In this document: positions 1,636-51,805 of the stretch, in pieces
How the letters are laid out: every line of letters begins with the position of its first letter
Position numbering within the stretch: the first letter of the stretch is position 1
IMG/VR virus record: IMGVR_UViG_3300042894_005140
Location: 1 to 64,000 of that record
Length of the DNA: 64,000 nt
Source: a virus
Reading direction: 5' to 3' (one strand)
Notes under the pieces: generated by a model
What the model saw: the letters and a program-made list of their open reading frames with translations, nothing else
Databases searched by the model: none
Told to the model about the DNA's origin: nothing
Position numbers and translations under genes: made by a program

Positions 1636-1872
1636 TTAAATGTTACCTAAGTACAATATAAAGTCTTCTATAACCGCCTTATCGGCGTTATTAGCCACGT
1701 TCCTCATTTCCATCAACATCGTCATAGGATCTACTTTAGACTCTAATATAAGGTTTTTGACAGGTTTAAGTACGCTTTCAGCCAACATATGTTGTTCTTG
1801 AGAATCATAATCCTCAATATCGTTTAGGTATAGTTGAATATACTCGTGTAAATTACTTTCCGATAATTTCAT
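1636..1872 (-). CDS. hypothetical protein (78 aa)
   Basis: A small acidic, mostly helical protein with no motif that I recognise. Its start overlaps the 3' end of the DUF6884 gene by 20 nt, so the two are probably translationally coupled. It is the last gene of the unit that begins with the VWA gene. Confidence 0.6.
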   Translation of the reverse strand: MKLSESNLHEYIQLYLNDIEDYDSQEQHMLAESVLKPVKNLILESKVDPMTMLMEMRNVANNADKAVIEDFILYLGNI

Positions 1873-2335
1873 AAATTGTTTTCTTTATATGTTGAATAAA
1901 TTCTTTTATTTTTTGAGCTTGTGAGTTTAACCAAGACAATCGTTCTCCCATTCTCTTACCTTCCATTGGTTTTTCTATATTTTCTGCTGGAATAAAACTT
2001 TCAAGTGGCTTCATATACTCTGAACCTGTTAAGAAAACAAACTTATCAGATTGAGGATTAACTCCCATTTTACCCATTTGATCTTTAACTGTTGAACCCC
2101 ATTGATCTTTCTCATCTTTCTTCATAGTCTTAAGAGTTAAATCATAAGGTTCAATTTGTTTATCCATAGGTAATAAACCATACTTAGCAGATAAGATAAA
2201 CATTTTATCAGGTTTAAGAGCTTCACCATACACCTTTGTTTTTTGGAACATAGGAGAAGGTGAGTACATGTCTTTAGCTGGAGCTGGCTTATCCAACTTA
2301 GATTTGGTACAACTCAATAATACAATTTTAGCCAT
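1853..2335 (-). CDS. DUF6884-like protein
   Basis: 160 aa. The N-terminus reads LLSCTKSKL and the middle has FILSAKYGLL followed by a PYDLTL element, the pattern of the DUF6884 family. The family is thought to be distantly related to the YaaA and archaeosine-synthase-associated domains, which share an SC-x-K-K-like start and a SAKYG-like motif; that relationship is from memory. With a 7-deazaguanine operon elsewhere in this phage, a nucleobase-related role is conceivable but unproven. Confidence 0.65.
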   Translation of the reverse strand: MAKIVLLSCTKSKLDKPAPAKDMYSPSPMFQKTKVYGEALKPDKMFILSAKYGLLPMDKQIEPYDLTLKTMKKDEKDQWGSTVKDQMGKMGVNPQSDKFVFLTGSEYMKPLESFIPAENIEKPMEGKRMGERLSWLNSQAQKIKEFIQHIKKTIYEIIGK

Positions 2336-2349
2336 ATATTATAAATATG

Positions 2350-3075
2350 TTAGAAAGGTAATTCAATATCAATATCCTCAAAAACATACTTATCTAGAAT
2401 GTATTTAGTATAAATTGTTCCATTACTTTGTTCTGCTGTTATAGATTTATTCTTTGATCGAATACATTTAACAATTTTAAAGTAATTATCCCAATCTATG
2501 CTTTGTATGTCTTGAAAATGTTTATATTGTTTTCCTACTCTAGTATCTGTTCCATACATCATTTTAGCAGCTAAAATAATACTAGGATGAGTGATTTTAA
2601 TAGTAGTTCCAAAATAATCTAATTCAAACCAATCTTTTGCTTTAAGATAATTTTTATTAAAAAAATCTACTTTATAGTATTTTTCCTTAAAATCTTTAAG
2701 AGTATCTCCTAATGATGAATACTCTGATAATGAGTATTCTTGGTACTTACAATTATGTTCTAATATAATTAAGTCTTTTTTAAGACTTTCAATAGGAGAT
2801 TTTAGTTTAATTGTATCACCTTCTTCTTCATAATCATTGCTACTCCTAGTAATACACAAATCAAAAAAATCAAGTAATGTTAAAAATTCTTTTTCATCAA
2901 ATGGTTCTGTTAAACTAAAATCTAAATCTGGATCTCGTTTTTCAAAATCATATTCCATCATTTTAAGGATATACAAAGCCAAACTTCCACCTAACACAAA
3001 CTTATTATGTATAGTCATTAATGGGATTATTTTTTCTTCCCATTTTTCAGGTAATCTATTTAGTAAATGTTCCAT
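2350..3075 (-). CDS. nucleotidyltransferase-like protein
   Basis: 241 aa. Residues 28-33 (LGGSLA) followed by RDPDLDF at 47-53 resemble the G-G-S and D-x-D elements of the minimal nucleotidyltransferase fold seen in AbiEii-type and related enzymes. A later helical region (THPSIILAAKMMYG) also fits that group. The stop is tightly spaced to the DUF6884 gene, and the start shares one base with the VWA gene stop (TAATG). Substrate unknown. This is a fold guess from short motifs. Confidence 0.5.
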   Translation of the reverse strand: MEHLLNRLPEKWEEKIIPLMTIHNKFVLGGSLALYILKMMEYDFEKRDPDLDFSLTEPFDEKEFLTLLDFFDLCITRSSNDYEEEGDTIKLKSPIESLKKDLIILEHNCKYQEYSLSEYSSLGDTLKDFKEKYYKVDFFNKNYLKAKDWFELDYFGTTIKITHPSIILAAKMMYGTDTRVGKQYKHFQDIQSIDWDNYFKIVKCIRSKNKSITAEQSNGTIYTKYILDKYVFEDIDIELPF

Positions 3076-4256
3076 TATCTTACAATTTTTATTTTAGCAC
3101 CTGGTAAATCATTATTTATATCATGGCCTGAACTATGAACCCAAAGCATAGGCTTCATAGGTTGAGTTTTAGGAGAGCAACATTCACCATCAGTTAAATA
3201 AATCAAATTAGCATATTCATTTCTATGTTCTGATAGGTATTGCATCACTGGTTCAAAATCAGTACCACCTCTACCTTGTACTTCAATTTCTTCTCTTTGA
3301 CCTTTATATTCATAAACTCTTTGAACCTTAGCATCACATTCAATAATATCAACATAAGTACCTGATTTATATATGTGATAAATTTCATTAAAGAATTCTA
3401 CTAAATCATCATTACTAACAGAACCTGAAGTATCAATAGCAACCAATGTTCTTTTCTTTTGTTTTATTTTAAGGGCAGGACCCGTATTGAAACGTCTGTT
3501 CGGCTTACGACGAGTCTTTTTAGTATAGACCATAGTAGACATACTATTAAAACGTCTAAGGTATGACTTCCAATCAATAACAGGTTCAACAATCTCAAAT
3601 AAAGAATCAATATAATCTTTCATTTCAGATGGAACCAAACCTCTACCAGAACCTTTTTTCTCTAAAGTATCAGTTACATCTTTTAGTTGGTGGTCAATTT
3701 GTTTAGCAATAAGTTTCTTTTCAGCCTCACTTAAACCTTCAACACCATCTAAATCTAAAACAAACTCACTACCTTCACCAGCCATTTTAGCTACATCACC
3801 ATCAGGATTGTCTTGAATTTCTTGCATCAACTTACCATAATAATAATCTGTACCTTTTCTAGGTTCTAAATTAAGTGGTTTAAAAGTAGGACCATCAATT
3901 TCTAAACCATCCCAAGCCTCACCTTTCATGTCAGAGTTAATATATTGGTTGATTTCTAAATCAGCCGCCATATTATACACTTTCTTATTATCAAAACGAT
4001 CCCAATTAGTTAAATGAAAGAAACAAATATGAAGTAACTCATGTTTAAGTACTCCCAATTTAGTTTTATCATCTAATGTAGCCCAAAAATCTGGATTAAC
4101 TTTTAGTTTAGTATTAATCTTGTCTGGTGTAACACAAGCTGTTTGAATATTTTTATCTAACTCTTTATTTAAAGAGATGAGTACTAAACCATAAAATGGT
4201 TCTTTAAGCATTAGATGCTTAGAAAATTTTGCGATTTCTTCGTATGTATTATTCAT
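3075..4256 (-). CDS. DUF2201-type VWA / metallopeptidase-like protein
   Basis: 393 aa. The N-terminal half carries a zincin-type motif HELLHICFFH at 72-81 (HExxH plus a third His). The C-terminal half is a von Willebrand A domain with MIDAS sequence DTSGSVS at 275-281 and a later TDGE. This layout matches the DUF2201 family, which usually pairs with a MoxR-type AAA+ ATPase; one is encoded two genes upstream (5460-6635). Such pairs act as chaperone-like or metal-insertion machines in bacteria. Its role in a phage is unknown. Confidence 0.8.
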   Translation of the reverse strand: MNNTYEEIAKFSKHLMLKEPFYGLVLISLNKELDKNIQTACVTPDKINTKLKVNPDFWATLDDKTKLGVLKHELLHICFFHLTNWDRFDNKKVYNMAADLEINQYINSDMKGEAWDGLEIDGPTFKPLNLEPRKGTDYYYGKLMQEIQDNPDGDVAKMAGEGSEFVLDLDGVEGLSEAEKKLIAKQIDHQLKDVTDTLEKKGSGRGLVPSEMKDYIDSLFEIVEPVIDWKSYLRRFNSMSTMVYTKKTRRKPNRRFNTGPALKIKQKKRTLVAIDTSGSVSNDDLVEFFNEIYHIYKSGTYVDIIECDAKVQRVYEYKGQREEIEVQGRGGTDFEPVMQYLSEHRNEYANLIYLTDGECCSPKTQPMKPMLWVHSSGHDINNDLPGAKIKIVR

Positions 4257-4268
4257 AACCTATTTATA

Positions 4269-4300
4269 TTAATATAACAAAAAATAGCCCGAAGGCCAAA
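4269..4300 (-). promoter_or_regulatory. phage promoter, VWA unit
   Basis: TTTG-N20-TATATTAA, ending 12 nt before the ATG at 4256. The spacer holds a short GCC-CGAA-GGC stem-loop. Confidence 0.7.
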
Positions 4301-4302
4301 TC

Positions 4303-5397
4303 TTATTTTCTGTTGTGAAGTGATATTTTAAAGTTATCTATTTGTAACATACAACCTTTAAAACCAAATCCATTTTCTGCTAAATGTCTATTAATATTTT
4401 GTAAAACAAATTGTTCAATGATCTCCTTAGCTCCTTTATCATTAGCATAGTTTTTATATAAACCAGCACTAAATGGTCTATAATCTCGTTTCCAATCAAT
4501 CCCTTTATTTAAAAAATAACGGTCTAGTGTTTTATATGCTTGACTACCTGTATTACCATTTCCCCAATTCATATTACTACTATGTTTATTTAATAAAAGG
4601 GCAATTGTTAAACCATATTTATTTAAATTAACATTAGACATCATTTCAATAGCTAATCTAATATTGTCTGGTTCTTTACTACTAAACATACTATCTAAAG
4701 TATTAACATAATCATCATCTAAGTCAATACCATCTGAGTTAAGTGTTTCTAAGATGTTATCATCCCAAATAATATTACCATGTGGATTTAGAAAATAAAG
4801 TTTAATAGTATCAAATACATCTTGAATATTTTTTGTTCTGTAAGTATGTTGTTCATGATAATCTTCCCAGACTAAATTTCCTAATGCTTGTTTAAAATCA
4901 GATGGATAATCAATATAATCACTGTAGTTTATAAGTAAACTATATTTTTTTACAAAAAACTCTTCATATTGTTTTACGTAGTTAGGTCGACCACTATTAT
5001 ACTTGTTAATAGTATCTAATAAATCTTTAGTAAAAGGAACATTAACAATTTTTACTTCTTTACAATTATCAAACCATTTGTAAACATCATTAATAATTTT
5101 TTTATCAAAAATAACAGTATCTGAATTTTCAATAATAGTTGTTTTCTTGATTTTATTTTCCTCTACAAGCATTTTAATTTTATGACGAGGAGCATTAGAA
5201 CCTTTACCCACATAAATTGTTTTACCTATTTTACCATTACCCTCATTATTGAAGATAGTTTTAATGTTGGCTTTATGTTTTTCTAGTTCATCTTTAGTAT
5301 AAAAAGATTTATGATTACCATCATACCAACTGGTGTAAAAATACCCATTATTACCAGGATTACTAAATTTAGGTGAAATACATTTTTCTATTTTCAT
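4303..5397 (-). CDS. hypothetical protein between MoxR and VWA genes (364 aa)
   Basis: I do not recognise this protein. It is rich in Asn, Lys and Tyr, with no signal peptide or membrane segment. An early segment, TIYVGKGSNAPRHKIKML, weakly recalls a GIY-YIG-like 'YVGKG' element, but no catalytic set follows that I can identify. It has its own promoter and lies between the MoxR-type ATPase gene and the VWA gene, so it may be a third component or a client of that pair. Confidence 0.65.
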   Translation of the reverse strand: MKIEKCISPKFSNPGNNGYFYTSWYDGNHKSFYTKDELEKHKANIKTIFNNEGNGKIGKTIYVGKGSNAPRHKIKMLVEENKIKKTTIIENSDTVIFDKKIINDVYKWFDNCKEVKIVNVPFTKDLLDTINKYNSGRPNYVKQYEEFFVKKYSLLINYSDYIDYPSDFKQALGNLVWEDYHEQHTYRTKNIQDVFDTIKLYFLNPHGNIIWDDNILETLNSDGIDLDDDYVNTLDSMFSSKEPDNIRLAIEMMSNVNLNKYGLTIALLLNKHSSNMNWGNGNTGSQAYKTLDRYFLNKGIDWKRDYRPFSAGLYKNYANDKGAKEIIEQFVLQNINRHLAENGFGFKGCMLQIDNFKISLHNRK

Positions 5398-5411
5398 AAC
5401 TTTTATTTATT

Positions 5412-5443
5412 TAAATATAACAAAGGGGATTTGGATAGCCAAA
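5412..5443 (-). promoter_or_regulatory. phage promoter, 364-aa hypothetical
   Basis: TTTG-N20-TATATTTA, 14 nt before the ATG at 5397. Confidence 0.7.
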
Positions 5444-5459
5444 CCCCCAATGTCGGATC

Positions 5460-6635
5460 TTATTTCATAATATATTTTACTAACTCTTTATCCATAATCA
5501 TGGTTTTAAATTTACTCATATTATTATTGTAAATTGACTTAACCATATTATAACAAATATCAGTAGTAAAAATTTCTTCAGTAACTAGTTTAGAAATTCT
5601 ATTAATGGTATCTTTTTCAACTGGATTATTTTTAGAATAAAAATCCAAATAGTTTATAACCCTAGTAGATAATGTTGAGGCAATATCTGCTCTATATTTA
5701 GCATCTTTACCAACTAAACCTTTCAAAGTAGTCATAACATATTTTTCATCCTGTTTAAAGATATTCTCAGGTGAAATCATTTTGTCCAACTTGTTATTAA
5801 TAAACATAGTAAACAAACTACTAAATTCTGGTCCAACTGAACCCTCTCCAATCATTTGAATCAAAGGCAAACTATCATCAAACGATTTAAGTGAAGAAAT
5901 AGAATTAAAGAACATAGATACACTTCTACTATTAACATCTGTAGTAACTAGTTCTGGATGCATCAATAGGAAGTTAATACATCGACCATCAATATCATTC
6001 TCCTCAGCCCACTTACCCCAACAATCAATATCAAATTTCAAGTTGACACTAATAAATCGAGTCTTTTGAGCATTATCAATACTATTAACTAAATAATCTC
6101 CATTATCAGGATTGGCAGTAAGAATAATATGCCAATCTTTAGGCAATGACCAACTAACATATTGTTGACGGTCAATAAGTTCCATAATAGCTTGAATAAA
6201 CCTAACATCAGCTCTATTCCAGTCATCCAAAAGCAAAATTCCACCTTTTTCTTTATTAGCAATCCATTCAGGTGGGCAATAACTCATTCTGTTTTGACCA
6301 GTTGAATTATACCCTAGTTTAAGGTATTCATCTAATGTATGTTCATCAATCCAAGTCTTTTCATTATTGATTTCAACTTCAAATTGACGGATTGGAAAAC
6401 CTACCAAGTCACCAATTTCTTCAATTTGGGCTAAGTTCAACTTAACAAAGTTAAGATTCTGTTCTTTTGCCAATTGAATAATGGCTGATGTTTTACCAAT
6501 ACCACTCTCACCAATTACTTCTACACTAACAGGTGACTTACCTTGTTCTTGCAAATAACGATTATTTGCGATGATGTGACCTAAGAAATCCTTAAGTTCG
6601 TTTACGTTGATTGAAATAAGATCCTTTTTTTTCAT
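5460..6635 (-). CDS. MoxR-like AAA+ ATPase
   Basis: 391 aa. Walker A GESGIGKTS (42-50), Walker B ILLLDDWNRAD (133-143) and sensor 1 ILTANP (171-176) are all present. The Walker B ending in D-x-x-N-R-A is typical of the MoxR / dynein-midasin-like branch. The C-terminal half is helical. Proteins of this branch act with VWA-domain partners; the DUF2201 VWA protein at 3075-4256 is the obvious one. No own promoter was seen, so it probably follows the small gene at 6662-6832. Confidence 0.85.
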   Translation of the reverse strand: MKKKDLISINVNELKDFLGHIIANNRYLQEQGKSPVSVEVIGESGIGKTSAIIQLAKEQNLNFVKLNLAQIEEIGDLVGFPIRQFEVEINNEKTWIDEHTLDEYLKLGYNSTGQNRMSYCPPEWIANKEKGGILLLDDWNRADVRFIQAIMELIDRQQYVSWSLPKDWHIILTANPDNGDYLVNSIDNAQKTRFISVNLKFDIDCWGKWAEENDIDGRCINFLLMHPELVTTDVNSRSVSMFFNSISSLKSFDDSLPLIQMIGEGSVGPEFSSLFTMFINNKLDKMISPENIFKQDEKYVMTTLKGLVGKDAKYRADIASTLSTRVINYLDFYSKNNPVEKDTINRISKLVTEEIFTTDICYNMVKSIYNNNMSKFKTMIMDKELVKYIMK

Positions 6636-6661
6636 AACTTTTATTTATTATTTTTTATTTA

Positions 6662-6832
6662 TTATTTAACTTCTTCCTCTTTTCCGAAAAAAATACTTCC
6701 GAAAGAAAACCCAAAACAAAATAGAGCAGCCAATTCTAAAGTTTCAAGACCCAATTGTCCAAATCCCATAGCGATCAAAAATGAACTAACTCCCAAAATC
6801 GCCAATTTGTTGTTTTTGCTAATGTTTTTCAT
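6662..6832 (-). CDS. small membrane protein (56 aa)
   Basis: Begins MKNISKNNKLAILGVSS and contains two hydrophobic stretches (about 9-25 and 33-50) before a charged tail KEEEVK. It starts in the AAAGGTTATG context downstream of a promoter, directly ahead of the MoxR-like gene. Likely an inner-membrane miniprotein; function unknown. Confidence 0.65.
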   Translation of the reverse strand: MKNISKNNKLAILGVSSFLIAMGFGQLGLETLELAALFCFGFSFGSIFFGKEEEVK

Positions 6833-6859: not shown

Positions 6860-6891
6860 TAAATATAACATCCCATGTTGATGAGGCCAAA
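6860..6891 (-). promoter_or_regulatory. phage promoter, small membrane protein and MoxR-like gene
   Basis: TTTG-N20-TATATTTA, 27 nt before the ATG at 6832. Confidence 0.75.
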
Positions 6892-26477: not shown

Positions 26478-26632
26478 AATATAGTTGTTACACCAAATAT
26501 TTTTAAAAATTCTTTTAATGGGAGTTGTTTACGCTCAGCAAACAATTTAGCAGCTTGTAATCTAGATGTTGTAACTACACGACCAATTGTTTCTTTATTT
26601 TTATCGTTTCTGTTATAAAATTTAAATATCAT
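26474..26632 (-). CDS. small protein (52 aa), possible HTH
   Basis: Starts at 26632 as MIFKFYNRNDKNKETIG. Residues 22-50 (TSRLQAAKLFAERKQLPLKEFLKIFGV) look helical and could be a small DNA-binding turn. Both ends overlap neighbours by 4 nt, which supports translation. Confidence 0.5.
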   Translation of the reverse strand: MIFKFYNRNDKNKETIGRVVTTSRLQAAKLFAERKQLPLKEFLKIFGVTTIL

Positions 26633-27534
26633 AATCTAATATACTTATGTTGTTGTTCTTCTAAACTATTAATAGTTATTTTTAAATTTCCAATTTGGAA
26701 TGTTCCTGTATCATTTGTTTCTTTTACAATATCATTTAATTGTTGAATATAATTATAATCCTGTTGTGTTATAGTCTTACCATCAATTTCTACAATTACA
26801 TCTTCACCATCATTAAACCATAAGCCTAATGATTGTTTTATATTAGTATCCATATCACCATGGATGATTAATTTTTTATTATAAACTACATTGTATGTTG
26901 ATTTTCTAAACCCCCACTTTTTAACAAAGTTAAAATTAGATTCTTGTTCTATAGATTGATAGTCACCTACACGAGATGTTTTACTAACAAAATGATAAAC
27001 ATGAGCTGAACTAACTTTATGTTCAAAACCAGCTAGTTTATATCTTAAATGCAAATCATCATCTTCACAAAACATTTTAAAAGTATTACCATCAATACCA
27101 ATATAATCCTCTTTCATACAACCAAAGAATAATTGTGAACCACCATCAACTAAACTTTCCTCTATATTAAAATCTAAGAATTTTTGATTATTAAATGTTT
27201 TTAAATCATTACCACAATCCAAAATAATTTTACCAGCATATATGTCGGGATAAATAGGAGGTTCAATTCTTGTGTAAGTTGTTATTCTTCCTTTTTGAAT
27301 ATGTTTATCCATAGTTTCAAGAAAACCAGGCTTAATAACCATATCATTATGAAGTAAAATAATTTTTTCACCTTTTGCTTTAGCAACAGCATTATTATAA
27401 TTTAAACCTAAAGTAATACTGTTGTTTTCTTCAATAACTACATCAACATCAGGATAAATTTCTTTAATATTATTTAAAATATTAATAGTGTATTCTGTGT
27501 TGGTTTTATTTGTTGGGATGATTAATGATATCAT
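26629..27534 (-). CDS. family 2 glycosyltransferase
   Basis: 301 aa. GT-A fold start MISLIIPTNKTN, LLHNDMVI as the D-x-D-like site (about 81-88) and CEDDDLHLRYKLAGF later are typical of GT2 enzymes that use nucleotide sugars. The last 80 residues are an unassigned extension. Part of a cluster of sugar genes (26.6-34.3 kb). Confidence 0.85.
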   Translation of the reverse strand: MISLIIPTNKTNTEYTINILNNIKEIYPDVDVVIEENNSITLGLNYNNAVAKAKGEKIILLHNDMVIKPGFLETMDKHIQKGRITTYTRIEPPIYPDIYAGKIILDCGNDLKTFNNQKFLDFNIEESLVDGGSQLFFGCMKEDYIGIDGNTFKMFCEDDDLHLRYKLAGFEHKVSSAHVYHFVSKTSRVGDYQSIEQESNFNFVKKWGFRKSTYNVVYNKKLIIHGDMDTNIKQSLGLWFNDGEDVIVEIDGKTITQQDYNYIQQLNDIVKETNDTGTFQIGNLKITINSLEEQQHKYIRL

Positions 27535-27535
27535 A

Positions 27536-28192
27536 TTAATATGTTTTATAAAAATCGTCTACTGATATAATATTTAGTAATTCTTCTCTATATGAGTCAA
27601 AATAGTTCCATTCTAAACATTTTTCTAAAGAAGCTTTATTGTAAAGTTCTTGTGGTTTTTGTTTAACTATACCCACTCCCCAATCTGTGTCTACTACTTT
27701 TATTTCTAAATTAGGTTCAGTACATCTAAGTTTAACTACTGATTTCCAAACATCTCCATTCCATAAGCCTGAAATTCGAGGAATAACCTGGTTTGTAAAT
27801 TCAGGTGGATTACAATCATGTAATATAATAAATCCATTAGGCATTAAATGATTTAAGGAATTTTTTATATCTTTATCTACTTGATTTGAATGATGAAGAC
27901 CATCTATAAAAATAATATCATACTTAATATCATGTCCCTTAATAAAATCAAAAAACTCATCAGAAGTAATAGGATAGTTAATTTCAGGAACATTCATACC
28001 TCCAACCTCTGATCCTGGTGAAGGATCAACTCCGTCTTTATGTATGGCCTTAATTTTTCTTATACAAAGCCCATCATTTACTCCTATTTCTAAATAGTTT
28101 AGAAAATTATAGTTTTTTATTAAATGGTTAATTAAATCCCATCTTTTAACTCCGTTAGGGTCAGCATAGATATCATTTGAATATTTTTTCAT
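27536..28192 (-). CDS. class I SAM methyltransferase (Methyltransf_24-like)
   Basis: 218 aa from the ATG at 28192 (MKKYSNDIYADPNGVKRW), which follows the upstream stop by 1 nt. YLEIGVNDGLC is motif I, VDPSPG follows, YDIIFIDGLHH is the acidic motif and ILHDCNPP the post-motif. Similar enzymes methylate sugars in surface-polysaccharide clusters; with glycosyltransferases on both sides that is the likeliest role. Confidence 0.75.
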   Translation of the reverse strand: MKKYSNDIYADPNGVKRWDLINHLIKNYNFLNYLEIGVNDGLCIRKIKAIHKDGVDPSPGSEVGGMNVPEINYPITSDEFFDFIKGHDIKYDIIFIDGLHHSNQVDKDIKNSLNHLMPNGFIILHDCNPPEFTNQVIPRISGLWNGDVWKSVVKLRCTEPNLEIKVVDTDWGVGIVKQKPQELYNKASLEKCLEWNYFDSYREELLNIISVDDFYKTY

Positions 28193-28193
28193 A

Positions 28194-29150
28194 TTATTGT
28201 GCTTTACTAAATGCTGCGTAGACATTTTTTGGTATTATATTTTTTTCTTTTAATTGCTCAACTCCTTTATTAATATATTGAGGTAAATTAGCTTCAAATA
28301 TTGATCTTTGTTCTTTTGCTCCTATTTTTATACTTAAAAAATCTTTATAATAAGAAGTAAAATCTCTATCTCTTAAATCTCCCATACTGTAATCTAATAT
28401 AGTTTCTCCTCTTAAAACATATTGCTGGAAGTCAACATTATTTAGCTTAGTAAAATCAGATAACAACATTGAATAATAATCCCATGGGCCATATCCTGTC
28501 CAATCATCATGAATAGGACATAAGTTTTCATAAAACTCTTTATTATATATGTCAAACCATATAGCCCATTTACTTTTATCTACAGTTTCTAAAAACCTTT
28601 CATCTTCTGGATGGTTTATGTCTTTCATAAGATGAAAAATATCAAAGTCACCCCATTTATCATAAGGAACATCCATGTATTTTTTATTAGTTATACTATC
28701 CCATGTGCTGTCCCACATCTTATGTATTTCAGGAGTAACAACAAAATATTTATTTTTTACTAAACGAACGGATTCAATTAAGTAAGATAACAAATACTCA
28801 CTAAAATATATATCAGGGCAAATAGAAATATAGTAATCAAATTCTTTACCATAAGCTATTTTTTGCATATCTAATAAACCATAGTTTTCATCTCCATCAT
28901 AAATGATAGAGTTATGTTTATAGTCTTTTAGTAAAATAGCTAAATCATTATATTTTTTAATAAAAAATTCTTTTGGTAATTGACTATTGTCCCAATCAAT
29001 GATATGGTTAGATAAATTTAAATGAGTATCAATAGTAATTTCTATATCTTTATTCAAATAATAAAATGATTTTTTTAGTTGGGTATATGACAGTAATGCA
29101 AAATCAATTTGCCAAGGCATAATTAAATAAAATAGTTTTATCTTAATCAT
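28194..29150 (-). CDS. predicted glycosyltransferase-like protein
   Basis: 318 aa. DYYISICPDIYF in the middle could be a D-x-D-like site of a GT-A fold, and the acidic/aromatic C-terminal half is typical of such enzymes. No family signature is decisive. Its place between a methyltransferase and an epimerase-like gene supports a sugar role. Confidence 0.5.
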   Translation of the reverse strand: MIKIKLFYLIMPWQIDFALLSYTQLKKSFYYLNKDIEITIDTHLNLSNHIIDWDNSQLPKEFFIKKYNDLAILLKDYKHNSIIYDGDENYGLLDMQKIAYGKEFDYYISICPDIYFSEYLLSYLIESVRLVKNKYFVVTPEIHKMWDSTWDSITNKKYMDVPYDKWGDFDIFHLMKDINHPEDERFLETVDKSKWAIWFDIYNKEFYENLCPIHDDWTGYGPWDYYSMLLSDFTKLNNVDFQQYVLRGETILDYSMGDLRDRDFTSYYKDFLSIKIGAKEQRSIFEANLPQYINKGVEQLKEKNIIPKNVYAAFSKAQ

Positions 29151-29650
29151 AATTTACCGGTTTTAATTTCAGTTACTATTTGCTCAATAGTCAATTTTCT
29201 TCCTAAAATATTCATCTCATTTTTAGTAAAAGGTTTAATTAAATTTACCCAATATAAGAATTCATCTAAACTTAAAACATATCGAGTAGTGTTTTGTACA
29301 TTAGGTTCTATTCCTTTACTTAGCTGAGATTTAAATACATTTAGTATAGTGTTTGGAGTTTTTACCCATTCACAAACTTCAATCCTCACTATAGTATAAT
29401 ATTTAAAATTATTTCTAATATATTCTTCTATCTCTATTTTATGGTCAGTGTATCTATCTTTTTTATAATAGACTCCTAAATTTGAAAAATAAACTATATG
29501 TTTATCTTTTGAAATTGTTTTAAGAAGATTAAATTCTCTTTCATATTCATTTTCATCCACACATGTACTATTACTTACCCCGGATGCGAAAAATACTAAG
29601 TCATTATTGTCTTTAAGGACATTAGCTATACTCCCATTACCTATTATCAT
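29147..29650 (-). CDS. short NAD(P)-binding epimerase/SDR-like protein
   Basis: 167 aa. MIIGNGSIANVL gives a shortened nucleotide-binding start, VYFSNLGVYYKKDRYTDHK carries a Ser then a Y-x-x-x-K-like set, and VRIEVCEW resembles the motif after it. It is much shorter than typical sugar epimerases (about 300 aa), so it may have lost the substrate domain or act as a reductase. Confidence 0.6.
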   Translation of the reverse strand: MIIGNGSIANVLKDNNDLVFFASGVSNSTCVDENEYEREFNLLKTISKDKHIVYFSNLGVYYKKDRYTDHKIEIEEYIRNNFKYYTIVRIEVCEWVKTPNTILNVFKSQLSKGIEPNVQNTTRYVLSLDEFLYWVNLIKPFTKNEMNILGRKLTIEQIVTEIKTGKL

Positions 29651-30459
29651 ATTAACTTATTATGTTTAAAAATTTGAGTTATTGTGTTAACTATGTTTTG
29701 TTCGTAATCTACGTAATCTAAAGCTAATTTCCAATTTTTTTCAATTATTTCTTTTCTATTTTCATAATAACTTTCATTTAGTTGATTAGTTATATAAACT
29801 AAATCATCAACATTATTAAAAGTTATAATACCATCCATATCAAAATAATCACCTATGTTTGAGCAACCCCAATATAAAGGAATAGTTTTAAGCAAAAAAC
29901 AATCTAATATTTTTTCAGTAAAATATCCTCTGTAAGAAGTATTTTCAATCACTACTCCAAATTGTGAATTACCAAATATAAATTCTTTACCTAAACGAGC
30001 ATCATCAATATTATTTCTGTCTCCATAGGTCTCATAAAACTTAGTAGGAATGCTAAATTCATTTTTTCTAGCGGTAGCTTCATGTCTTAAAGAATGACCA
30101 TATGTTTTAAGTAACTTACCTTGTAAATGAGCCAATTGGAATGTTTTATCATGATTTTTATTATATTGATCGGGTTTAAGCCAAGTATGTCCAAAAGGTT
30201 GAAAAATAGCATTATCACAATTGTTTAATACTTTATCATTTTGAGTTAAAATAATAGTGAATATATCTTTATTTTTAATAACCCAATCATGTAATCCAAA
30301 GTATTCATTTGGTTCCTGGAATGCAATTATATTAATTGGAGATAATTCTTCTTGAGATTGAGGAGCAGTATCAATAAATAAAGAAAAATCTAAATAAGAT
30401 AAATGTTTAAGTTTATCTTCAAAAATCTGTTTATCAAAGTGTGCTACTTTTAATTTCAT
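29647..30459 (-). CDS. GT10-type (alpha-1,3-fucosyltransferase-like) enzyme
   Basis: 270 aa. The segment about 174-200, FGVVIENTSYRGYFTEKILDC, followed by TIPLYWGCSNI, is the hallmark of GT10 fucosyltransferases (E-N ... Y-x-T-E-K ... P-x-Y-x-G). It would transfer a deoxysugar from GDP. The acceptor could be a phage structural glycan, host surface sugar or modified DNA; nothing here decides. Confidence 0.8.
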   Translation of the reverse strand: MKLKVAHFDKQIFEDKLKHLSYLDFSLFIDTAPQSQEELSPINIIAFQEPNEYFGLHDWVIKNKDIFTIILTQNDKVLNNCDNAIFQPFGHTWLKPDQYNKNHDKTFQLAHLQGKLLKTYGHSLRHEATARKNEFSIPTKFYETYGDRNNIDDARLGKEFIFGNSQFGVVIENTSYRGYFTEKILDCFLLKTIPLYWGCSNIGDYFDMDGIITFNNVDDLVYITNQLNESYYENRKEIIEKNWKLALDYVDYEQNIVNTITQIFKHNKLI

Positions 30460-31064
30460 AACGTATTATAAAACTGGTTTTGTTTTTCTTGTTTTTCAAT
30501 AGTTTTTGGATGAATTAAAGCTAACTCATCAACTGCAGGCAGTACAGTGAAACGTTTATGACCTTCAATCACTTCATGAACCGCATTCCTCCATTTAATT
30601 TCAGGAACATTTCTATAAATTCGTGTTTGATAATCAGGCCAATTTACTCTTTCATTTTCATATTTCCAACCCCATTTTTGTATATGTTCTGATGTAATAC
30701 CACTTACTGTATTAATTCTAGGAACATAATACAAATCAACTTCTGGATTGGCTTTAAGAATTTGAGGAAGTAATTCTAACATTTCAAGAGCTATTAATTC
30801 ATCAGCGTCAATCTGAAAGATAAATTCTCCTAAACAGTGTTTTGTTAATTCATTTTTATATGAAGCAAAATCTTTATTTAAAGGATAAAACCAATGTTTT
30901 ATTCCTCTATCAAGAATAACACTTACTACTTCTTTAGTATGATTATCCTGATCAATTTGGACTACGATTTCATACTCAGGTGATAGAGCACGTTCTTGAA
31001 GATAATCAAGTAACGTCTCTAACTCCTGATGTTCGTTACATACAGTGATTGCTAGGCTAATCAT
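30456..31064 (-). CDS. family 2 glycosyltransferase (short)
   Basis: 202 aa. MISLAITVCNEHQELETLL and FQIDADELI (about 85-93) are the GT2 start and D-x-D motif, as in WaaE-like lipopolysaccharide glucosyltransferases. Overlaps neighbours by 4 nt on both sides. Confidence 0.8.
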   Translation of the reverse strand: MISLAITVCNEHQELETLLDYLQERALSPEYEIVVQIDQDNHTKEVVSVILDRGIKHWFYPLNKDFASYKNELTKHCLGEFIFQIDADELIALEMLELLPQILKANPEVDLYYVPRINTVSGITSEHIQKWGWKYENERVNWPDYQTRIYRNVPEIKWRNAVHEVIEGHKRFTVLPAVDELALIHPKTIEKQEKQNQFYNTL

Positions 31065-31516
31065 TCTGGTATAACTCCAATGTATGAGAGGGCATCCATA
31101 AATTCCTTTTCACTAAAGTTTTTTATAGTGTCCATATCCATTCTGAATTTATAATGTTCACCTGGTTTTTTAGGATTAGGGTATTTATGTTTTTCTTCTT
31201 CTTTAACTGGTACTGATTTTACTGCTGACCAATGCCAGTTAAAAGCAGAGGCTCCGTTAGCAAAAATCATTCCTTTTTCATGTAAGTTGATAGCTGATGG
31301 CATCCATACTTTACCTTTTTCATCTTTATGGAATAAATCTTTATAAAGTTCAGGTAGTATTTCTTTTTGTTGAGTTAAAAACTCTCCATCTTCAACCATT
31401 AATGAATTTGTTTGGAAACCACAACCATAACAAAAATAGGTTTTAATGTCTTGGTTTACTTCATCTACGTAACATGCGTCTGAGCCGCAGCGGTCACAAA
31501 TTATTAAATTATCCAT
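31061..31516 (-). CDS. zinc-ribbon conserved phage protein (151 aa)
   Basis: IICDRCGSDACYVD and TYFCYGCGFQT give a C-x2-C / C-x2-C ribbon in the first 40 residues. The rest includes FNWHWSAVKSVPVKEEEKHKY, a pattern that I recall from hypothetical proteins of large phages. It lies inside the sugar cluster, but a sugar role is not evident. Confidence 0.6.
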   Translation of the reverse strand: MDNLIICDRCGSDACYVDEVNQDIKTYFCYGCGFQTNSLMVEDGEFLTQQKEILPELYKDLFHKDEKGKVWMPSAINLHEKGMIFANGASAFNWHWSAVKSVPVKEEEKHKYPNPKKPGEHYKFRMDMDTIKNFSEKEFMDALSYIGVIPE

Positions 31517-32816
31517 TTATCTTTTTTAATTTAGGTATTTCAATTTTTTTAAGTTGAGGTAATGCTAGTTTAACTTCTTTAGGAAACTCAGGAATATATT
31601 TAATAAGTAATTCATCTACTTTTTCCTTCATAGCATCCCAACTAAAATTATTTTTATTTTTACTAGCTAAGCGTTTAGCATTCTCAGTATAGTTTTTATA
31701 ATTTTCAAAAACATCTTTTAAATAAAAACCAGTTTGACCAGGGTCTACAGTGAACCATTTTGATTCAGGTAACAGGAACTGATTTTTAGTGCTTGGATGA
31801 ACATTAGTTAATTGACCTCCTAATAAACAAGTTAATTTAGAATCTAAGAAATCAATTTGGCCTGACCATCCAGAACAAATGATAGGTTTTTTAGTTAAAC
31901 TAAATTCAAGCAATGGACGACCAAAACCTTCTCCTTTAGTTAAATTAACCATTGCTTTTACTTTTGGATGGTTATAAAGTTCATTCATTTCTTCATCTGA
32001 GAATTCACCATGTAAAAGATATATGTTAGGTAAGTTTTTAGAGTTTACTGTTTTCTTAATTTTCTTAATTTTCTTAAGAATTTCCTCTCTATCATAATAA
32101 GATGAACTTACTTGAGATGTTTTTAAAATTAAAGCAGGTTTATTCATTTTATTTTTAAACGTTTCAAAAAACGCTTTAACTAACAAACCAACATTCTTTC
32201 TATCCTCACCCATATCGCCTTCCATCCAATGTCCTACAAACAAATAAGCAAATTTTTCTTTAATACCCATCAATGAAGTATATAATTCACTTTGAGGTAT
32301 TTTATCTAATATTTTATAAACATTAGTGTTAGCTCCTTCAAACAATACTTCAATAGGCTTTTCTATTTTAATAGTAGATTCTAAAACATTTGTTTGTTTA
32401 TTTCTTTTTTCAAATACACAGTCTTCAAATACTTTTTTAGAGTGATTAGATGAAGTAAGAGTTAAATCCATTCTATTAATACCTTCAACCCAATCCCCAG
32501 GACAAATATCACTTTCAATACCTGCTGTAACTCCAATATTAAACTTTCCTATAGGTTGAAATTCATTTGGAACAGTAATCTGCATCCAAATATCAGGTTG
32601 TTGATGGTTTGTTGGATTAGTAATCATATGATTTAGTAAAAACTCCCATTCTAGATTAGATTTACAGAATCCAAAAGGTGTATTTCCCCATCGTTGAGAT
32701 AAAAGTTTTACTTCATATTTATTAGTTTCTATAATAGATTTAACTAAATCTCTGCTTCGTGCTCCATACCCAGAGAAAGTATCAAATGGACAACTAATTA
32801 CAAATAACGGTTTCAT
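31509..32816 (-). CDS. GT4-like glycosyltransferase
   Basis: 435 aa from the ATG at 32816 (MKPLFVISCPFDTFSGYG), which lies just after the upstream stop; longer versions would overlap that gene by over 100 nt. GT-B fold: glycine-rich start, LFVGHWMEGDMGEDRKN in the middle and the late NLTKGEGFGRPLLEFSLT, equivalent to the E-G-x-G-x-x-x-x-E motif of GT4 enzymes. Confidence 0.8.
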   Translation of the reverse strand: MKPLFVISCPFDTFSGYGARSRDLVKSIIETNKYEVKLLSQRWGNTPFGFCKSNLEWEFLLNHMITNPTNHQQPDIWMQITVPNEFQPIGKFNIGVTAGIESDICPGDWVEGINRMDLTLTSSNHSKKVFEDCVFEKRNKQTNVLESTIKIEKPIEVLFEGANTNVYKILDKIPQSELYTSLMGIKEKFAYLFVGHWMEGDMGEDRKNVGLLVKAFFETFKNKMNKPALILKTSQVSSSYYDREEILKKIKKIKKTVNSKNLPNIYLLHGEFSDEEMNELYNHPKVKAMVNLTKGEGFGRPLLEFSLTKKPIICSGWSGQIDFLDSKLTCLLGGQLTNVHPSTKNQFLLPESKWFTVDPGQTGFYLKDVFENYKNYTENAKRLASKNKNNFSWDAMKEKVDELLIKYIPEFPKEVKLALPQLKKIEIPKLKKING

Positions 32817-32820
32817 TTTT

Positions 32821-34254
32821 TTAATATAATAATTTATGATTAATAATTCTATCTTTAGCTTCAGTAGCATTAATAAGTTCAAATCTTTCTCTTGGTTGCC
32901 AAGTAGAAAATAACTCATCAAATGCTTCAATTACTCTTTTACCTTGAGTTTCTCCAGTAAATCCAGCTTCATTTATAGCCCATTCTCTACCTTTTAAACC
33001 TTGAACTTTACGTTCTTCAGGAGTTAATTTATACACATTCATGATTTGTTCAGCAGCGTCTTCAGGACGGCAAGTGTCATCCCAAATGTAAGGAGTTGGA
33101 GGTGAACCTACAAGTGTACGTGATGAAGGAAATACTGGATAGGCCCATTCTTTATGTTTTTTATAAGTACCTTTATGATTTGAAGGAATTTCTGGTGAAG
33201 GTGTAAACCATTCTCCATTTTCATCTTCAAATCCCATTTGATCTTGCATACCCCCAGTCACGTTTGCAATGATTGGGTTACCTGATAGAATTGCTTCTGT
33301 TAAACTTAATCCCCATCCTTCATTAGATGTTAATAAAATTTGACAATCTGTACTATTATATAACATATTCATATGGGTTGGATCAAATCTAGCATCAGTA
33401 AAAATGACATTATATTGATCTCCATTCAATATCAACTCAATAACAGCTTCTAAATCAGTACCATGATCACTTATTCGTTCAGTATGAAGTACCAACACAC
33501 ATTTTTTAGCTTGTTCAATAGGCAACTGATCAATAAAATACCTATAAGCTAACATTGTATCTGGAATTTGTTTGCGACGAATGTTTCTTGAATTAAAGAA
33601 TAAAGCAAAATCATATTCTTTACCTTTAAATAAATTTTTCTTAAATTCTACTAATTTAGAATCCTTTTTATCTAATGGTTTAAAGACTTCATGATTCAGT
33701 CCATGAGGAACATATTTAATAATTTTTTTATCTGCTTTATCACCTAAAACAAGCTTATTAATATTTACTGTTTGTTTTGAAATACCCATCAGCAAATCAC
33801 AAGCTTCATAATACGGTAAGTTATATAATGGTGCTGGGTAGTCATCCCAAATGTTTAGGTAAGTAATTGGAATTGACTTACGAATTTCATTTTCCATAGC
33901 AAACAACCAAACAAAGTAACGAGGATCAGTAATCAACATAATAGCATCTGGCTGTTCAATTTTAATCAATTGTCTTAAAATGTCTGAATTGCCATATTCA
34001 TTTACAGGATACATTACTACGGATGAATCAGTTAGTCCGGTAATGTCATTTGTTGATTGAGATAGATCTAAACGTTGACCTGCTTCTGGATGTGTAATGG
34101 CACCTCCTAAATTAACCCAATTAAAATGTTGAGCAGTGTGGATTACAATTTCTTTGGCTACTGTTGCTACACCAGAAGTAACTCTAATGTCATCACAGAT
34201 AAGCATAATTTTCTTCCTCTTATCAGGAGGTAAGTAAGCAAAACTTGAATTCAT
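32821..34254 (-). CDS. GT4-type glycosyltransferase
   Basis: 477 aa. KIMLICDDIRVTSGVATVAKE at the start, FFNSRNIRRKQI in the middle and TSNEGWGLSLTEAILSGNPII late give a GT-B enzyme with the GT4 E-G-x-x-L-x-x-x-E signature. First gene of the sugar run, 8 nt after the RHH gene stop. Confidence 0.85.
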   Translation of the reverse strand: MNSSFAYLPPDKRKKIMLICDDIRVTSGVATVAKEIVIHTAQHFNWVNLGGAITHPEAGQRLDLSQSTNDITGLTDSSVVMYPVNEYGNSDILRQLIKIEQPDAIMLITDPRYFVWLFAMENEIRKSIPITYLNIWDDYPAPLYNLPYYEACDLLMGISKQTVNINKLVLGDKADKKIIKYVPHGLNHEVFKPLDKKDSKLVEFKKNLFKGKEYDFALFFNSRNIRRKQIPDTMLAYRYFIDQLPIEQAKKCVLVLHTERISDHGTDLEAVIELILNGDQYNVIFTDARFDPTHMNMLYNSTDCQILLTSNEGWGLSLTEAILSGNPIIANVTGGMQDQMGFEDENGEWFTPSPEIPSNHKGTYKKHKEWAYPVFPSSRTLVGSPPTPYIWDDTCRPEDAAEQIMNVYKLTPEERKVQGLKGREWAINEAGFTGETQGKRVIEAFDELFSTWQPRERFELINATEAKDRIINHKLLY

Positions 34255-46855: not shown

Positions 46856-47530
46856 TTAACCCATTTTAATCATCTCTAAAACTTCCATTTTAGCTGTTTT
46901 AGTATGATCAGCAAAAACTCCACTTACTTCACTTGTCATCATAGAAGCACCCTGATGTTTTACACCGCGACATGAGACGCAATTGTGTGTTGCTTTAACC
47001 ATAACCATTACCCCAACATTTCCTTCACAAATTTTGTCAATAGCATTATGAATAGCCATAGTAAGTTGTTCTTGAATAGCACCTCTACGTCCAAAATGAT
47101 CAACAATGCGGTTTAATTTACTTAAACCCACCACATTACCTTCAGGACCGGGGATGTAAGCAATGTGAACTACTCCCATAATTGTTTGGTGGTGGTGCGA
47201 ACATTGACTAATTAAAGGAATATCTTTTTCTAATACAATTCCTTGATACCCATCACTTGGAAATGAGGTAATGTCACTCATAGCATCGTAACGACCTTTC
47301 CACAAATCAAATACATAAGCTTTAGCTACACGGCGAGGTGTATCAGCACTGTTAGGATCATTTCTCCAATCACATTGTAAAGCATCTAAAAATTTACCAT
47401 AAGCTTCTGCTGCCTCATCTACCATTGACCACTTTTCTTTCTCAGTAAATGGGAAACCAGGAGCAATACCATTAGCATAACCTTGTTTTACACACTCTAG
47501 ATCGAGTGTAAATGTTTTATTTTTTTCCAT
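46856..47530 (-). CDS. folE: GTP cyclohydrolase I
   Basis: 224 aa, the E. coli length. It opens GTP to dihydroneopterin triphosphate, the first step to 7-deazaguanines. SQCSHHHQTIMG carries the zinc Cys and catalytic His; NCVSCRGVKHQGASM holds the second zinc Cys; the C-terminal SEVSGVFAD is typical. Here it is most likely the entry enzyme of the DNA-modification operon, with QueD, QueE, a QueC-like protein and DpdA. Confidence 0.95.
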   Translation of the reverse strand: MEKNKTFTLDLECVKQGYANGIAPGFPFTEKEKWSMVDEAAEAYGKFLDALQCDWRNDPNSADTPRRVAKAYVFDLWKGRYDAMSDITSFPSDGYQGIVLEKDIPLISQCSHHHQTIMGVVHIAYIPGPEGNVVGLSKLNRIVDHFGRRGAIQEQLTMAIHNAIDKICEGNVGVMVMVKATHNCVSCRGVKHQGASMMTSEVSGVFADHTKTAKMEVLEMIKMG

Positions 47531-47548
47531 AACTTATATTGTAATATA

Positions 47549-48052
47549 TTAATCTTCAGGTAAGTGGCCAAGTATATGTGGTAAGTTTCTTTTAGTTCCA
47601 TCAACTGAATCTAAACCATATCCTACTAGCCAGTACTCATTTTCTAAATTAAAACCATACATTAGATCAGGATTGTTAACTGTGTGTCTTTTAAACAAAG
47701 TTATTGGAGTTATTGATTTTGGATTTGATAAATTTAAATGAGTTATTAAAGCATTCATTGTATTACCTGAATCGTAGATATCATCTACAATATAAACATC
47801 TCTTCCTTCAATATTAGTTTCAATTGATTTAGAAATTTGGATTGTGTTTTGTGTTATACCCTCATAAGATTTAGCACGTATAAAGTCTATATGACAATCA
47901 CCTACACGCTTCACTAAATCTGTAAAGAACATAAACGCCCCATTTAAAACACAAATAAAAACGGGAGGATAATCATGTTGTTTTTTTGTAATATTGTAGG
48001 CCAACTCACCTACTTTGTTTTTAATTTCTTGTTCTGTAAATAAAGTTATCAT
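47549..48052 (-). CDS. hypoxanthine/guanine phosphoribosyltransferase
   Basis: 167 aa. The PRPP-binding motif VYIVDDIYDSGNTM and an early VLNGAFMFFTDLV, with FIRAKSYEG, match HPRT enzymes. It would convert guanine or hypoxanthine plus PRPP to the nucleotide. In this operon it could recycle guanine freed by DpdA into GMP and so to GTP for FolE; that is inference. Confidence 0.9.
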   Translation of the reverse strand: MITLFTEQEIKNKVGELAYNITKKQHDYPPVFICVLNGAFMFFTDLVKRVGDCHIDFIRAKSYEGITQNTIQISKSIETNIEGRDVYIVDDIYDSGNTMNALITHLNLSNPKSITPITLFKRHTVNNPDLMYGFNLENEYWLVGYGLDSVDGTKRNLPHILGHLPED

Positions 48053-48288
48053 TTTACTAATTTTTTCAATACATCTTTTACTTCATCAGCACCTTCAAAT
48101 AAGTGCTTACCATTTTTATCTTCAATAACTAAAGTAGGTACCCATTCAATATTAAAAGATTCAGTGATTAAATCTTCTTCATAAGTATTAACCATTTTAA
48201 TGTTAGTATGTTTACTAAACTCAGTCATTATAGGTTTTAATTCGGCACATTTGCCGCATTCATCATTATAGAAAAATGTTATGTTCAT
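48049..48288 (-). CDS. thioredoxin-like protein (CGKC)
   Basis: 79 aa. FYNDECGKCAEL gives a C-x-x-C active site and VPTLVIE the cis-Pro region. A short thioredoxin/glutaredoxin fold. It could serve the class II ribonucleotide reductase or another enzyme. Confidence 0.8.
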   Translation of the reverse strand: MNITFFYNDECGKCAELKPIMTEFSKHTNIKMVNTYEEDLITESFNIEWVPTLVIEDKNGKHLFEGADEVKDVLKKLVK

Positions 48289-48299
48289 TATTATAAATA

Positions 48300-48701
48300 T
48301 TATAATTTTGATTCGGGGAGTTTAAATACACGTTTTACTTGTTCTGAAATAGGTATTGGGGCTCCTTCTTCATCTACTCTAACAAATGTCATATTTGTAG
48401 CTAGTAAAATAACCTCATCACCCCTAAATACATTATATCCTCTTGCCTCAATATTAAAAGTAGCTGATGTGTTTCCTACTTTAAACATTTCAGCATATAT
48501 TTTAACAAGTTGTTTTTCTTTAGCAGGTTTTAAAAATACACACTTATCCATAGCAACAGTAATCATGTTTTGACTTCTACATTTTTCCATTGCATAAGCA
48601 GCAACCGCGGCATCTATCCAGCTAAGCAATTTGCCGCCAAATAGATTACCGTGGAAACCTAAATCTGATTTTTTAACTGGGTGTGTTGATAGTAAATCCA
48701 T
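48300..48701 (-). CDS. acyl-CoA thioesterase-like hotdog protein
   Basis: 133 aa. GNLFGGKLLSWIDAAVAAYA is the hotdog helix of YciA/BACH-type acyl-CoA thioesterases, and VFLKPAKEKQLVKIYAE follows. Its role in this operon is unclear; it may alter host lipid metabolism or have been recruited to another thioester. Shares one base with the QueE stop-start junction. Confidence 0.8.
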   Translation of the reverse strand: MDLLSTHPVKKSDLGFHGNLFGGKLLSWIDAAVAAYAMEKCRSQNMITVAMDKCVFLKPAKEKQLVKIYAEMFKVGNTSATFNIEARGYNVFRGDEVILLATNMTFVRVDEEGAPIPISEQVKRVFKLPESKL

Positions 48702-49492: not shown

Positions 49493-49494
49493 TA

Positions 49495-51802: not shown

Positions 51803-51805
51803 AAC

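Follow-up and report, generated by a model that had tools for sequence, protein, structure and literature searches.

A recurrent MoxR-VWA cassette of T4-like and putatively crAss-related phages with an orphan third component of predicted BRCT-like fold

A recurrent three-gene cassette, coding for a MoxR-type AAA+ ATPase, a VWA protein with an N-terminal HExxH metallopeptidase domain and an orphan 364-residue protein (here termed mid364), was identified in an IMG/VR phage contig, virus record IMGVR_UViG_3300042894_005140. The window, by which we mean the whole stretch of DNA analysed, comprises the first 64,000 bases of this 98,594-base record, which also encodes a tail sheath, a tail tube and a baseplate hub protein. 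From sequence comparison and structure modelling we tentatively propose that the three proteins might form a phage-encoded ternary protein-remodelling machine of the early or replicative phase, with mid364 as its adaptor and DNA complexes as its likely targets; we advance this as a genuine possibility, short of conviction. The genes for MoxR (5460..6635, 391 aa), mid364 (4303..5397) and the VWA protein (3075..4256, 393 aa) all lie on the minus strand, and on the same strand they are continued by genes for a nucleotidyltransferase (NTase)-like and a DUF6884 protein. A first-pass annotation of this DNA had described these five genes as contiguous, which they are, and a sixth gene for a 78-aa protein extends the run.

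The key evidence for the cassette as a unit is the linkage of its genes across phages. Loci were gathered from IMG/VR with the MoxR or the VWA protein as query; since only the best 80 of 189 relatives were kept in one search, the collection leans to close relatives, and since mid364 was not a query, it was not selected for. For the resulting table of 112 loci, 20 loci were dropped by hand (contigs already represented, or the window's own), and the set used for counting comprises 69 loci in which both genes of the pair are present and are flanked by 1.6 kb or more on either side, with three annotated phages left out. With detection by an iterated profile, a mid364 gene lies no more than two genes from the pair in 68 of these 69 loci, the sole exception being L022, an 11.4-kb contig in which the profile matches nowhere. 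Many loci are near copies of each other: clustering of MoxR at 98, 95 and 90% identity leaves 45, 36 and 29 clusters, with one exception each time, so that at 90% identity mid364 is present in 28 of 29 clusters. The first-pass annotation had named random association across phages as the finding that would undo its grouping, and for MoxR, VWA and the 364-aa protein this notion fails. The loci with the trio show three basic gene orders, namely VWA-MoxR-mid (28 loci, with a further 12 having the form VWA-MoxR-mid-mid), MoxR-mid-VWA (22) and mid-VWA-MoxR (6); thus a single mid364 gene stands beside the pair in 56 of the 69 loci and two paralogues in 12. The same annotation had drawn the five genes as one module. 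A real, recurrent trio survives from that proposal, but the NTase gene occurs within two genes of it in just 18 of 69 loci and the DUF6884 gene in 38 of 69, and the plain five-gene module was dropped because both are optional.

The carriers fall into two groups. The first is T4-like, and downstream of its trio are often found genes for DUF6884, the 78-aa family and a thymidylate-kinase-like protein, followed by terminase and portal. In the second lineage (L068-L081 and L128) the trio often includes two mid364 paralogues and is flanked by Sak4/primase genes and by exonuclease/DNA polymerase genes. The top-ranked record for the polymerase of this lineage is phi14:2 of the Crassvirales (35%), a phi14:2 protein without annotated function matches 3 of 6 second-lineage records and 0 of 4 T4-like ones, and matches in BFVD include a protein of a 'CrAss-like virus'; with caution, we regard the second lineage as crAss-related. 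The mid364 profile, which matches the window's record and two relatives, found nothing in 395 whole genomes from the phylum of a Saprospiraceae metagenome-assembled genome, or in six annotated phages (MTATph1, S-TIM5, phiKT1024, immuto, Mel-JY01 and phi14:2).

The MoxR-VWA pair looks intact by its motifs. Against Pfam the MoxR protein gives only matches below the cut-off (AAA_5, E 0.0024), and it matches PHROG 1297, 'ATPase', at E 2.4e-36; a profile of 24 MoxR relatives matches Midasin AAA domains at E 2.7e-32. In its Walker A motif (residues 42-49; 6489-6512, minus strand) G42, G45, I46, G47 and K48 are invariant in 24 of 24 sequences, as is R193. With an intact Walker A, a conserved arginine and a relation to the MoxR/Midasin clade, it is by these sequence features a MoxR AAA+ protein. 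The VWA protein matches DUF2201_N (PF13203, E 8.6e-19) and DUF2201 (PF09967, E 2.5e-18) above the Pfam cut-offs, and a PDB sequence profile search with it returned no match at E 0.01. Its HExxH motif lies at 4029-4043 and the DxSGS of its MIDAS at 3420-3434, both on the minus strand; across 32 phage and cellular sequences the invariant residues are H72, H76, D275, S277, S279, T332 and D356, with E73 and G278 kept in at least 90%. As judged from this N-terminal HExxH domain and C-terminal VWA domain with MIDAS, it is a DUF2201-type VWA metallopeptidase. The PHROG 1314 label 'HNH endonuclease', which recurs in many phage records, misfits the Pfam domains and motifs of the VWA protein here; in this phage, PHROG 1314 stands for a metallopeptidase-VWA protein.

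FastTree trees were made for VWA and for MoxR. In the VWA tree the T4-like and second-lineage phage proteins group together (15 of 15, support 0.992); in the MoxR tree the support for the phage clade is just 0.674 and the second lineage does not form a clade of its own. The nearest outside relatives in the trees are cellular Bacteroidota proteins (support 0.998 for MoxR and 0.943 for VWA, with one extra cellular sequence, L144, falling in the latter clade), and the N4-like, jumbo, Thermus and cyanophage sequences that were sampled fall outside this grouping.

The third component is of particular interest in that its family was recovered solely through the neighbouring genes. Neither NCBIfam nor PADLOC gave a significant match to mid364, and the best matches in Pfam (iREC, E 0.73) and PHROGs (E 0.033) fell short of significance as well; a PDB sequence profile search had no match at E 1. 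A direct homology search with the 364-aa protein found 0 matches in 50,697 phage records, as did searches with two relatives, and a peptide-pattern search of viral_contigs found none. The isolated iREC match was set aside, as were Spa1_C and T4_CASP, each an isolated match in 1 of 59 members. For modelling, we used an alignment of 59 of 72 clustered mid364 sequences, nine of the remainder constituting a second paralogue group. AlphaFold2 on these 59 sequences gave a mean pLDDT of 90.5 for the whole protein and 92.6 for residues 1-226 modelled alone, and the models describe a BRCT-like domain with an insert, followed by a HEAT-like helical domain. Among 50 VIA-align entries for the N-terminal model, 42 are titled BRCT, seven are LigA, RFC or non-homologous end joining (NHEJ) chains whose matched residue ranges we take to be their BRCT domains, and one is DdmD-DdmE. 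The best row is BRCA1 (a middling Z of 6.5 over 73 residues at 2.9 A), and further rows include MCPH1 (5.8), Sir4 (5.1), PARP (5.0), LigA in 9a6z (4.9) and RFC (4.6). The weight of the list probably lies in nearly all rows being one fold in the same register. With the whole protein, BRCT rows are mixed with armadillo or HEAT rows, the C-terminal part being likened to HEAT/armadillo repeats at a Z of about 6, which is a very common arrangement. Foldseek ranked unrelated enzymes highest and listed BRCT entries only singly lower down; its top rows were not used.

In the model the last strand and helix of the BRCT-like core (residues 206-222) come after a hypervariable insert (residues 124-205; 4783..5028, minus strand). 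An hhalign comparison with 30 BRCT sequences of Bacteroidota genomes, taken for LigA by frames of 666-786 aa, aligned columns 55-101 of the mid364 profile at E 0.002 and a probability of only 14% (6.4% for the whole family). Control alignments of NTase, VWA and MoxR with the same set stayed below 1% with 6 to 25 columns aligned, and for the second paralogue of mid364 the value was 0.4% in a similar register; this register of mid364 on BRCT appears plausible. We accordingly describe the modelled core as a BRCT-like fold and do not file it as a member of the BRCT family, because the Pfam BRCT model is unmatched and the Z is middling.

Rates of change within the cassette differ strongly. At a MoxR identity of 75-80%, the mean identity is 66% for VWA, 62% for DUF6884, 45% for NTase and 32% for mid364. 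Ratios of nonsynonymous to synonymous substitution (dN/dS) were computed starting from 104 MoxR pairs, of which 96 passed for MoxR, 74 for mid364 and 70 for both, with dS values of up to 2, near saturation, being used. The median dN/dS is 0.071 for MoxR (96 pairs), 0.114 for VWA (78) and 0.094 for DUF6884 (51), as against 0.354 for NTase (24) and 0.396 for mid364 (74); in all 70 pairs that passed for both, mid364 has a higher value than MoxR, with a median ratio of 5.9. Within mid364, mean pairwise identity is 15% in the insert, whose length varies from 56 to 99 residues across the family, 15% in the N-terminal extension, 31% in the BRCT core and 36% in the HEAT-like residues 223-275. Such a pattern may reflect a platform that stays fixed and a gripping part that varies, though relaxed constraint would give the same.

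A helix hairpin of mid364 (residues 222-262; 4612..4734, minus strand), with a consensus of roughly IDxExxxxLxxMLxSxDxxNxxLAxEIIxNAD, also occurs in small proteins whose genes lie next to the pair. A profile of this hairpin matches short open reading frames (ORFs), whose lengths are mostly 76-186 aa. These same loci supplied the profile, so that what informs is the position of its matches across whole records: a 20-row profile run over 15 whole cassette records (1,618,419 bases) gave 35 matches at E <=0.05, of which 34 fall no more than 2.5 kb from the MoxR-VWA pair and 17 are on ORFs of less than 300 aa. One record (G409, locus L112) has six small hairpin ORFs, of which one is the far match and five (L112:7678-10769) lie beside VWA, mostly between VWA and MoxR; in the window's record mid364 is the only match. 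No match was found in five phages without a mid364 match or in 198 cellular genomes. That the hairpin was kept while the remainder diverged suggests a shared docking job, and the copies could have originated by tandem duplication.

An indication of when the cassette is expressed comes from a 29-base promoter-like element, TTGGY-N15-TGTTATATT, of which the record has 16 mismatch-free copies, every one on the coding strand; when up to two mismatches are allowed, 26 copies are found in the window where 3.97 would be expected. It resembles the promoter type of Bacteroidota. Within the cassette region, copies on the minus strand lie at 6862..6890, upstream of MoxR and of a 56-aa small ORF (6662..6832, minus strand; hydrophobic by eye) between the element and MoxR, at 5414..5442, 16 bases upstream of mid364, and at 4271..4299, 14 bases upstream of the VWA gene, the last two overlapping a hairpin in the DNA. 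The end of the module in the first-pass annotation, 6832, is the start codon of the 56-aa ORF. Other copies precede a DUF932 gene, a RecA/RadA-like gene, an exonuclease gene, several small genes without an assigned function and a 429-aa gene that has no Pfam or PHROG match and that we take, by resemblance, to be a primase; four elements stand at cassette or DUF932 genes. None of the 16 copies lies beyond 63.8 kb, in the tail-gene region, for which the chance would be about 0.0009 under random placement. With a spacer of 13-17, L002 keeps the element before all three genes of the trio, and L110 keeps it before those for mid364 and VWA. The presence of the elements before the trio and before non-structural genes, with none in the tail region, speaks for expression of the cassette together with the non-structural genes in this phage. 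A generic sigma-70 scan of the region gave no more matches than shuffles. At 5414-5448 and 4271-4299 a terminator-like hairpin overlaps the promoter-like element, as if an upstream terminator had been fused to a downstream promoter; such overlap sites are no commoner in the region than in shuffles (3 versus 3.0).

MoxR proteins are chaperone-like AAA+ ATPases, and VWA domains bind peptides via the MIDAS, according to the literature (PMC7159879, PMC4124505, PMC7824862). In the machine that we envisage, MoxR would form a ring, and the VWA protein would load clients onto it or couple them, with its HExxH domain perhaps cutting or holding the client. As the dedicated adaptor, mid364 would offer its BRCT-like core and HEAT-like platform as a scaffold, dock on the machine by the hairpin and grip the target by the hypervariable insert; the small hairpin proteins beside the pair might be further plug-in adaptors or antagonists. 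Its time of action would be the early or replicative phase, not tail assembly, and its task would most likely be to pull apart or trim complexes on DNA. The step from an adaptor to a DNA-associated client is the weakest of the proposal; it is prompted by the predicted BRCT-like fold, by the promoter-like elements and, in the second lineage, by the replication genes around the trio. A more pointed version, in which a slowly evolving MoxR-VWA metallopeptidase engine, an obligatory BRCT-like adaptor whose hypervariable insert binds the target, and swappable small proteins plugging in by the hairpin would dismantle changing host or DNA-bound targets early on, we consider doubtful.

Several observations weigh against the adaptor machine. 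Among the T4-like relatives, many have terminase and portal a few genes downstream of the cassette, a placement that fits assembly. The VIA-align list covers about a dozen different proteins, with BRCA1 filling many of the rows, and its best Z is in the range below 8 in which, as VIA-align warns, a match may be a common arrangement; Foldseek against the PDB gave no match at E 0.001 for the whole of mid364 or for its N-terminal part, and the Pfam BRCT model (PF00533), which matches 12 of 14 controls, has no match in the record. The hairpin copies could have stayed near the pair through nothing more than local tandem duplication. The dN/dS pairs are not independent, and every median is below 1. 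The promoter evidence comes from the window's record and two near relatives: in 20 loci scanned, only L002 and L110 have an element before a gene of the trio, and 14 have none at all.

Rapid change confined to mid364 and NTase, beside slowly changing MoxR, VWA and DUF6884, would also be expected of counter-defence or host take-over, with mid364 and the small hairpin proteins catching and dismantling host defence or replication proteins; the variable accessory genes next to the pair, the elements shared with non-structural genes and the match of DUF6884 to PADLOC PDC-M57A (E 3.1e-47) point in the same direction. The first-pass annotation, too, had considered a conflict or counter-defence system. 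We nevertheless think such a role unlikely, if deserving of attention, as the dN/dS values below 1 do not indicate positive selection and MoxR, VWA, mid364 and NTase have no match at E 0.01 in PADLOC, whose models are of defence and not of anti-defence. Were the pair instead a virion-assembly chaperone with a peptidase, folding or trimming structural proteins with mid364 as structural client or scaffold, it would agree with the role proposed for the same domain combination in group 2.2 jumbo phages (PMC7824862), with p618 and p892 of the Acidianus two-tailed virus and their ATPase-enhancing partner p387 (PMC4124505), and with the nearby terminase and portal genes of many T4-like relatives. The cassette here, however, carries the element of the non-structural part, of which 0 of 16 copies are in the tail region (chance about 0.0009), the second lineage has the trio in a replication block, and a virion client would not be expected to drive fast change in one subunit alone; overall we judge assembly rather unlikely.

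Bacterial MoxR-VWA pairs often serve one neighbouring client, and the presence of one mid364 gene by the pair in 56 of 69 loci would suit mid364 as such a client, a DNA-associated protein that is activated or loaded by MoxR-VWA. The first-pass annotation had likewise suggested that the 364-aa protein could be the target. Its tie to the pair stands, but its conserved platform, hypervariable insert and small relatives seem more in keeping with an adaptor than with a substrate. Other small proteins beside the pair also carry the hairpin, 12 loci have two mid364 paralogues, the best conserved part is the helical platform and no active-site-like pattern was seen in the mid364 alignment. A dedicated client is on this evidence improbable. 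The match of MoxR to the 'porphyrin biosynthesis' PHROG 249 (E 1.3e-6), together with a ribonucleotide reductase at 55292-57148 whose match to the B12-dependent class II insertion domain narrowly misses the Pfam cut-off (E 2.3e-5), recalls a CobS/CobT-like chelatase pair inserting a metallocofactor into a phage metalloenzyme, for example a B12-type ribonucleotide reductase. PHROG 1297 is by far the better match for MoxR (2.4e-36), the trees place the MoxR and DUF2201 proteins of Bacteroidota nearest among the outside sequences, and no B12 gene was recognised beside the cassette, which leaves metallocofactor insertion a very improbable explanation.

The accessory genes, all on the minus strand, follow the trio. 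The NTase-like protein (2350..3075, 241 aa), an optional and fast-evolving accessory, has a Pol-beta-type pattern GGS...DxD...D, with G30, D50, D52 and D137 invariant in 17 of 17 members and S31 kept in at least 90%; with GG[S/T] and three acidic residues it is, by these motifs, a Pol-beta-type NTase. It has no Pfam match over the cut-off and none at E 10 in a PDB sequence profile search. Weak AbiEii matches occur in 2 of 17 members (best E 0.017). Rrn7_cyclin_C, matched below the cut-off in 4 of 17 members (best E 0.0005), was rejected because its match in the window's protein extends over residues 165-214 only. The DUF6884 protein (1853..2335, 160 aa; YaaA/DpdC-related), optional and slowly evolving, matches its Pfam family at E 2.6e-39 and was alone among seven proteins in matching PADLOC at E 0.01, namely the PDC-M57A candidate and, weakly, DpdC (E 3.1e-5). 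By these two matches, its place may be in a 7-deazaguanine DNA modification pathway and not with the MoxR machine. Elsewhere in the window, at 46856-53067, are genes for GTP cyclohydrolase I (46856-47530), a radical-SAM protein below the Pfam cut-off that was taken for QueE (48701-49492), a PTPS protein of QueD type (49495-49959), QueC (50596-51483) and a 258-aa protein that is TGT/DpdA-like by eye and has no Pfam match (52291-53067); from their annotation, these probably serve 7-deazaguanine DNA modification. The gene for the 78-aa protein (1636..1872) shares a 20-base overlap with the DUF6884 gene, and its cluster, c4, is present in 59 of 112 loci.

Two further observations concern other genes. 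In the T4-like loci unrelated proteins start with an amphipathic tag like MKxxxLKxLIKEEIxKIL (for example L059:10907-11854, L066:2289-3131, L066:4940-6490 and L084:11015-11287). It was found in the first 24 residues of 72 of 1387 proteins of at least 80 aa, near-copy loci included, as against 15 of 12205 interior 24-residue windows; it occurs in 18 gene clusters and in 0 of 284 proteins of the second lineage. The tag is reminiscent of the capsid-targeting sequence of T4, and could mark packaged or processed proteins. At 26629-34254 of the window lies a gene run that by eye resembles glycosyltransferases and related enzymes.

To our knowledge, the choice of clients by MoxR-VWA pairs is poorly understood. 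The phages described here offer dozens of natural variants (29 to 45 MoxR clusters) of a slow engine with one linked, fast-diverging subunit, which makes client choice testable by a single-gene swap, and the proposal supplies a hypothesis of function for an orphan family of T4-like and, by cautious assignment, crAss-related phages. A limited search of open-access literature found no account of the mid364 family, of its BRCT-like fold or of the shared hairpin, none combining BRCT with MoxR, and nothing that looked relevant for crAss with MoxR; within that search the third family appears new, while the MoxR-vWA metallopeptidase pair was already known.

Among known systems, the pair of the group 2.2 jumbo phages, for which a virion assembly role has been proposed (PMC7824862), likewise has a MoxR ATPase encoded with a VWA protein bearing an N-terminal metallopeptidase; unlike it, the cassette described here has a nearly obligatory orphan third family and occupies a different tree branch. 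The whole records of MTATph1, S-TIM5 and phiKT1024 have no match to the mid364 profile. In Achromobacter phage JWAlpha similar genes lie near each other and are annotated as similar to N4 gp24 and gp25. The closest relatives outside phages in the trees are the cellular Bacteroidota MoxR-DUF2201 pair of L142, the MoxR of L136 and the VWA of L139, with phage-Bacteroidota identities of 34-36% for MoxR and 31-32% for VWA. Cellular neighbourhoods were available as short loci only, and in L142 no mid364 match was found in about 1 kb downstream and 243 bases upstream of the pair. The VMAP, iSTAND, FtsH and beta-propeller ternary systems also combine MoxR and vWA with a third component (PMC7159879). 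The cassette here differs from the VMAP-type systems in being phage-borne, in the architecture of its third protein, and in a vWA protein that has an N-terminal peptidase and, its VWA domain (DUF2201 match, residues 272-382) closing the protein, no variable C-terminal effector domain. VMAP-C (PF20028) has no Pfam match at E 0.01 among 59 mid364 members; a scan of the record for it was also empty, as were 14 controls, which makes that scan uninformative alone. The third component has no Pfam match to iSTAND, FtsH or beta-propeller domains, and the fold lists (BRCT, helical repeats) exclude nothing.

With the BRCT domains of BRCA1, MCPH1, LigA, PARP and RFC the core of mid364 is predicted to share its fold, differing from them in the displacement of the last helix by an insert of about 80 residues and in leaving the Pfam BRCT model unmatched. 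For the Acidianus two-tailed virus, the published study (PMC4124505) describes the MoxR and VWA proteins p618 and p892 together with p387, which enhances the ATPase activity, and concludes a role of p618-p892 in tail development. That system differs from the one described here in belonging to an archaeal virus and in the tail role concluded for it, and resembles it in joining a viral MoxR and VWA protein to a further partner; mid364 could be the third subunit equivalent to that ATPase-enhancing partner.

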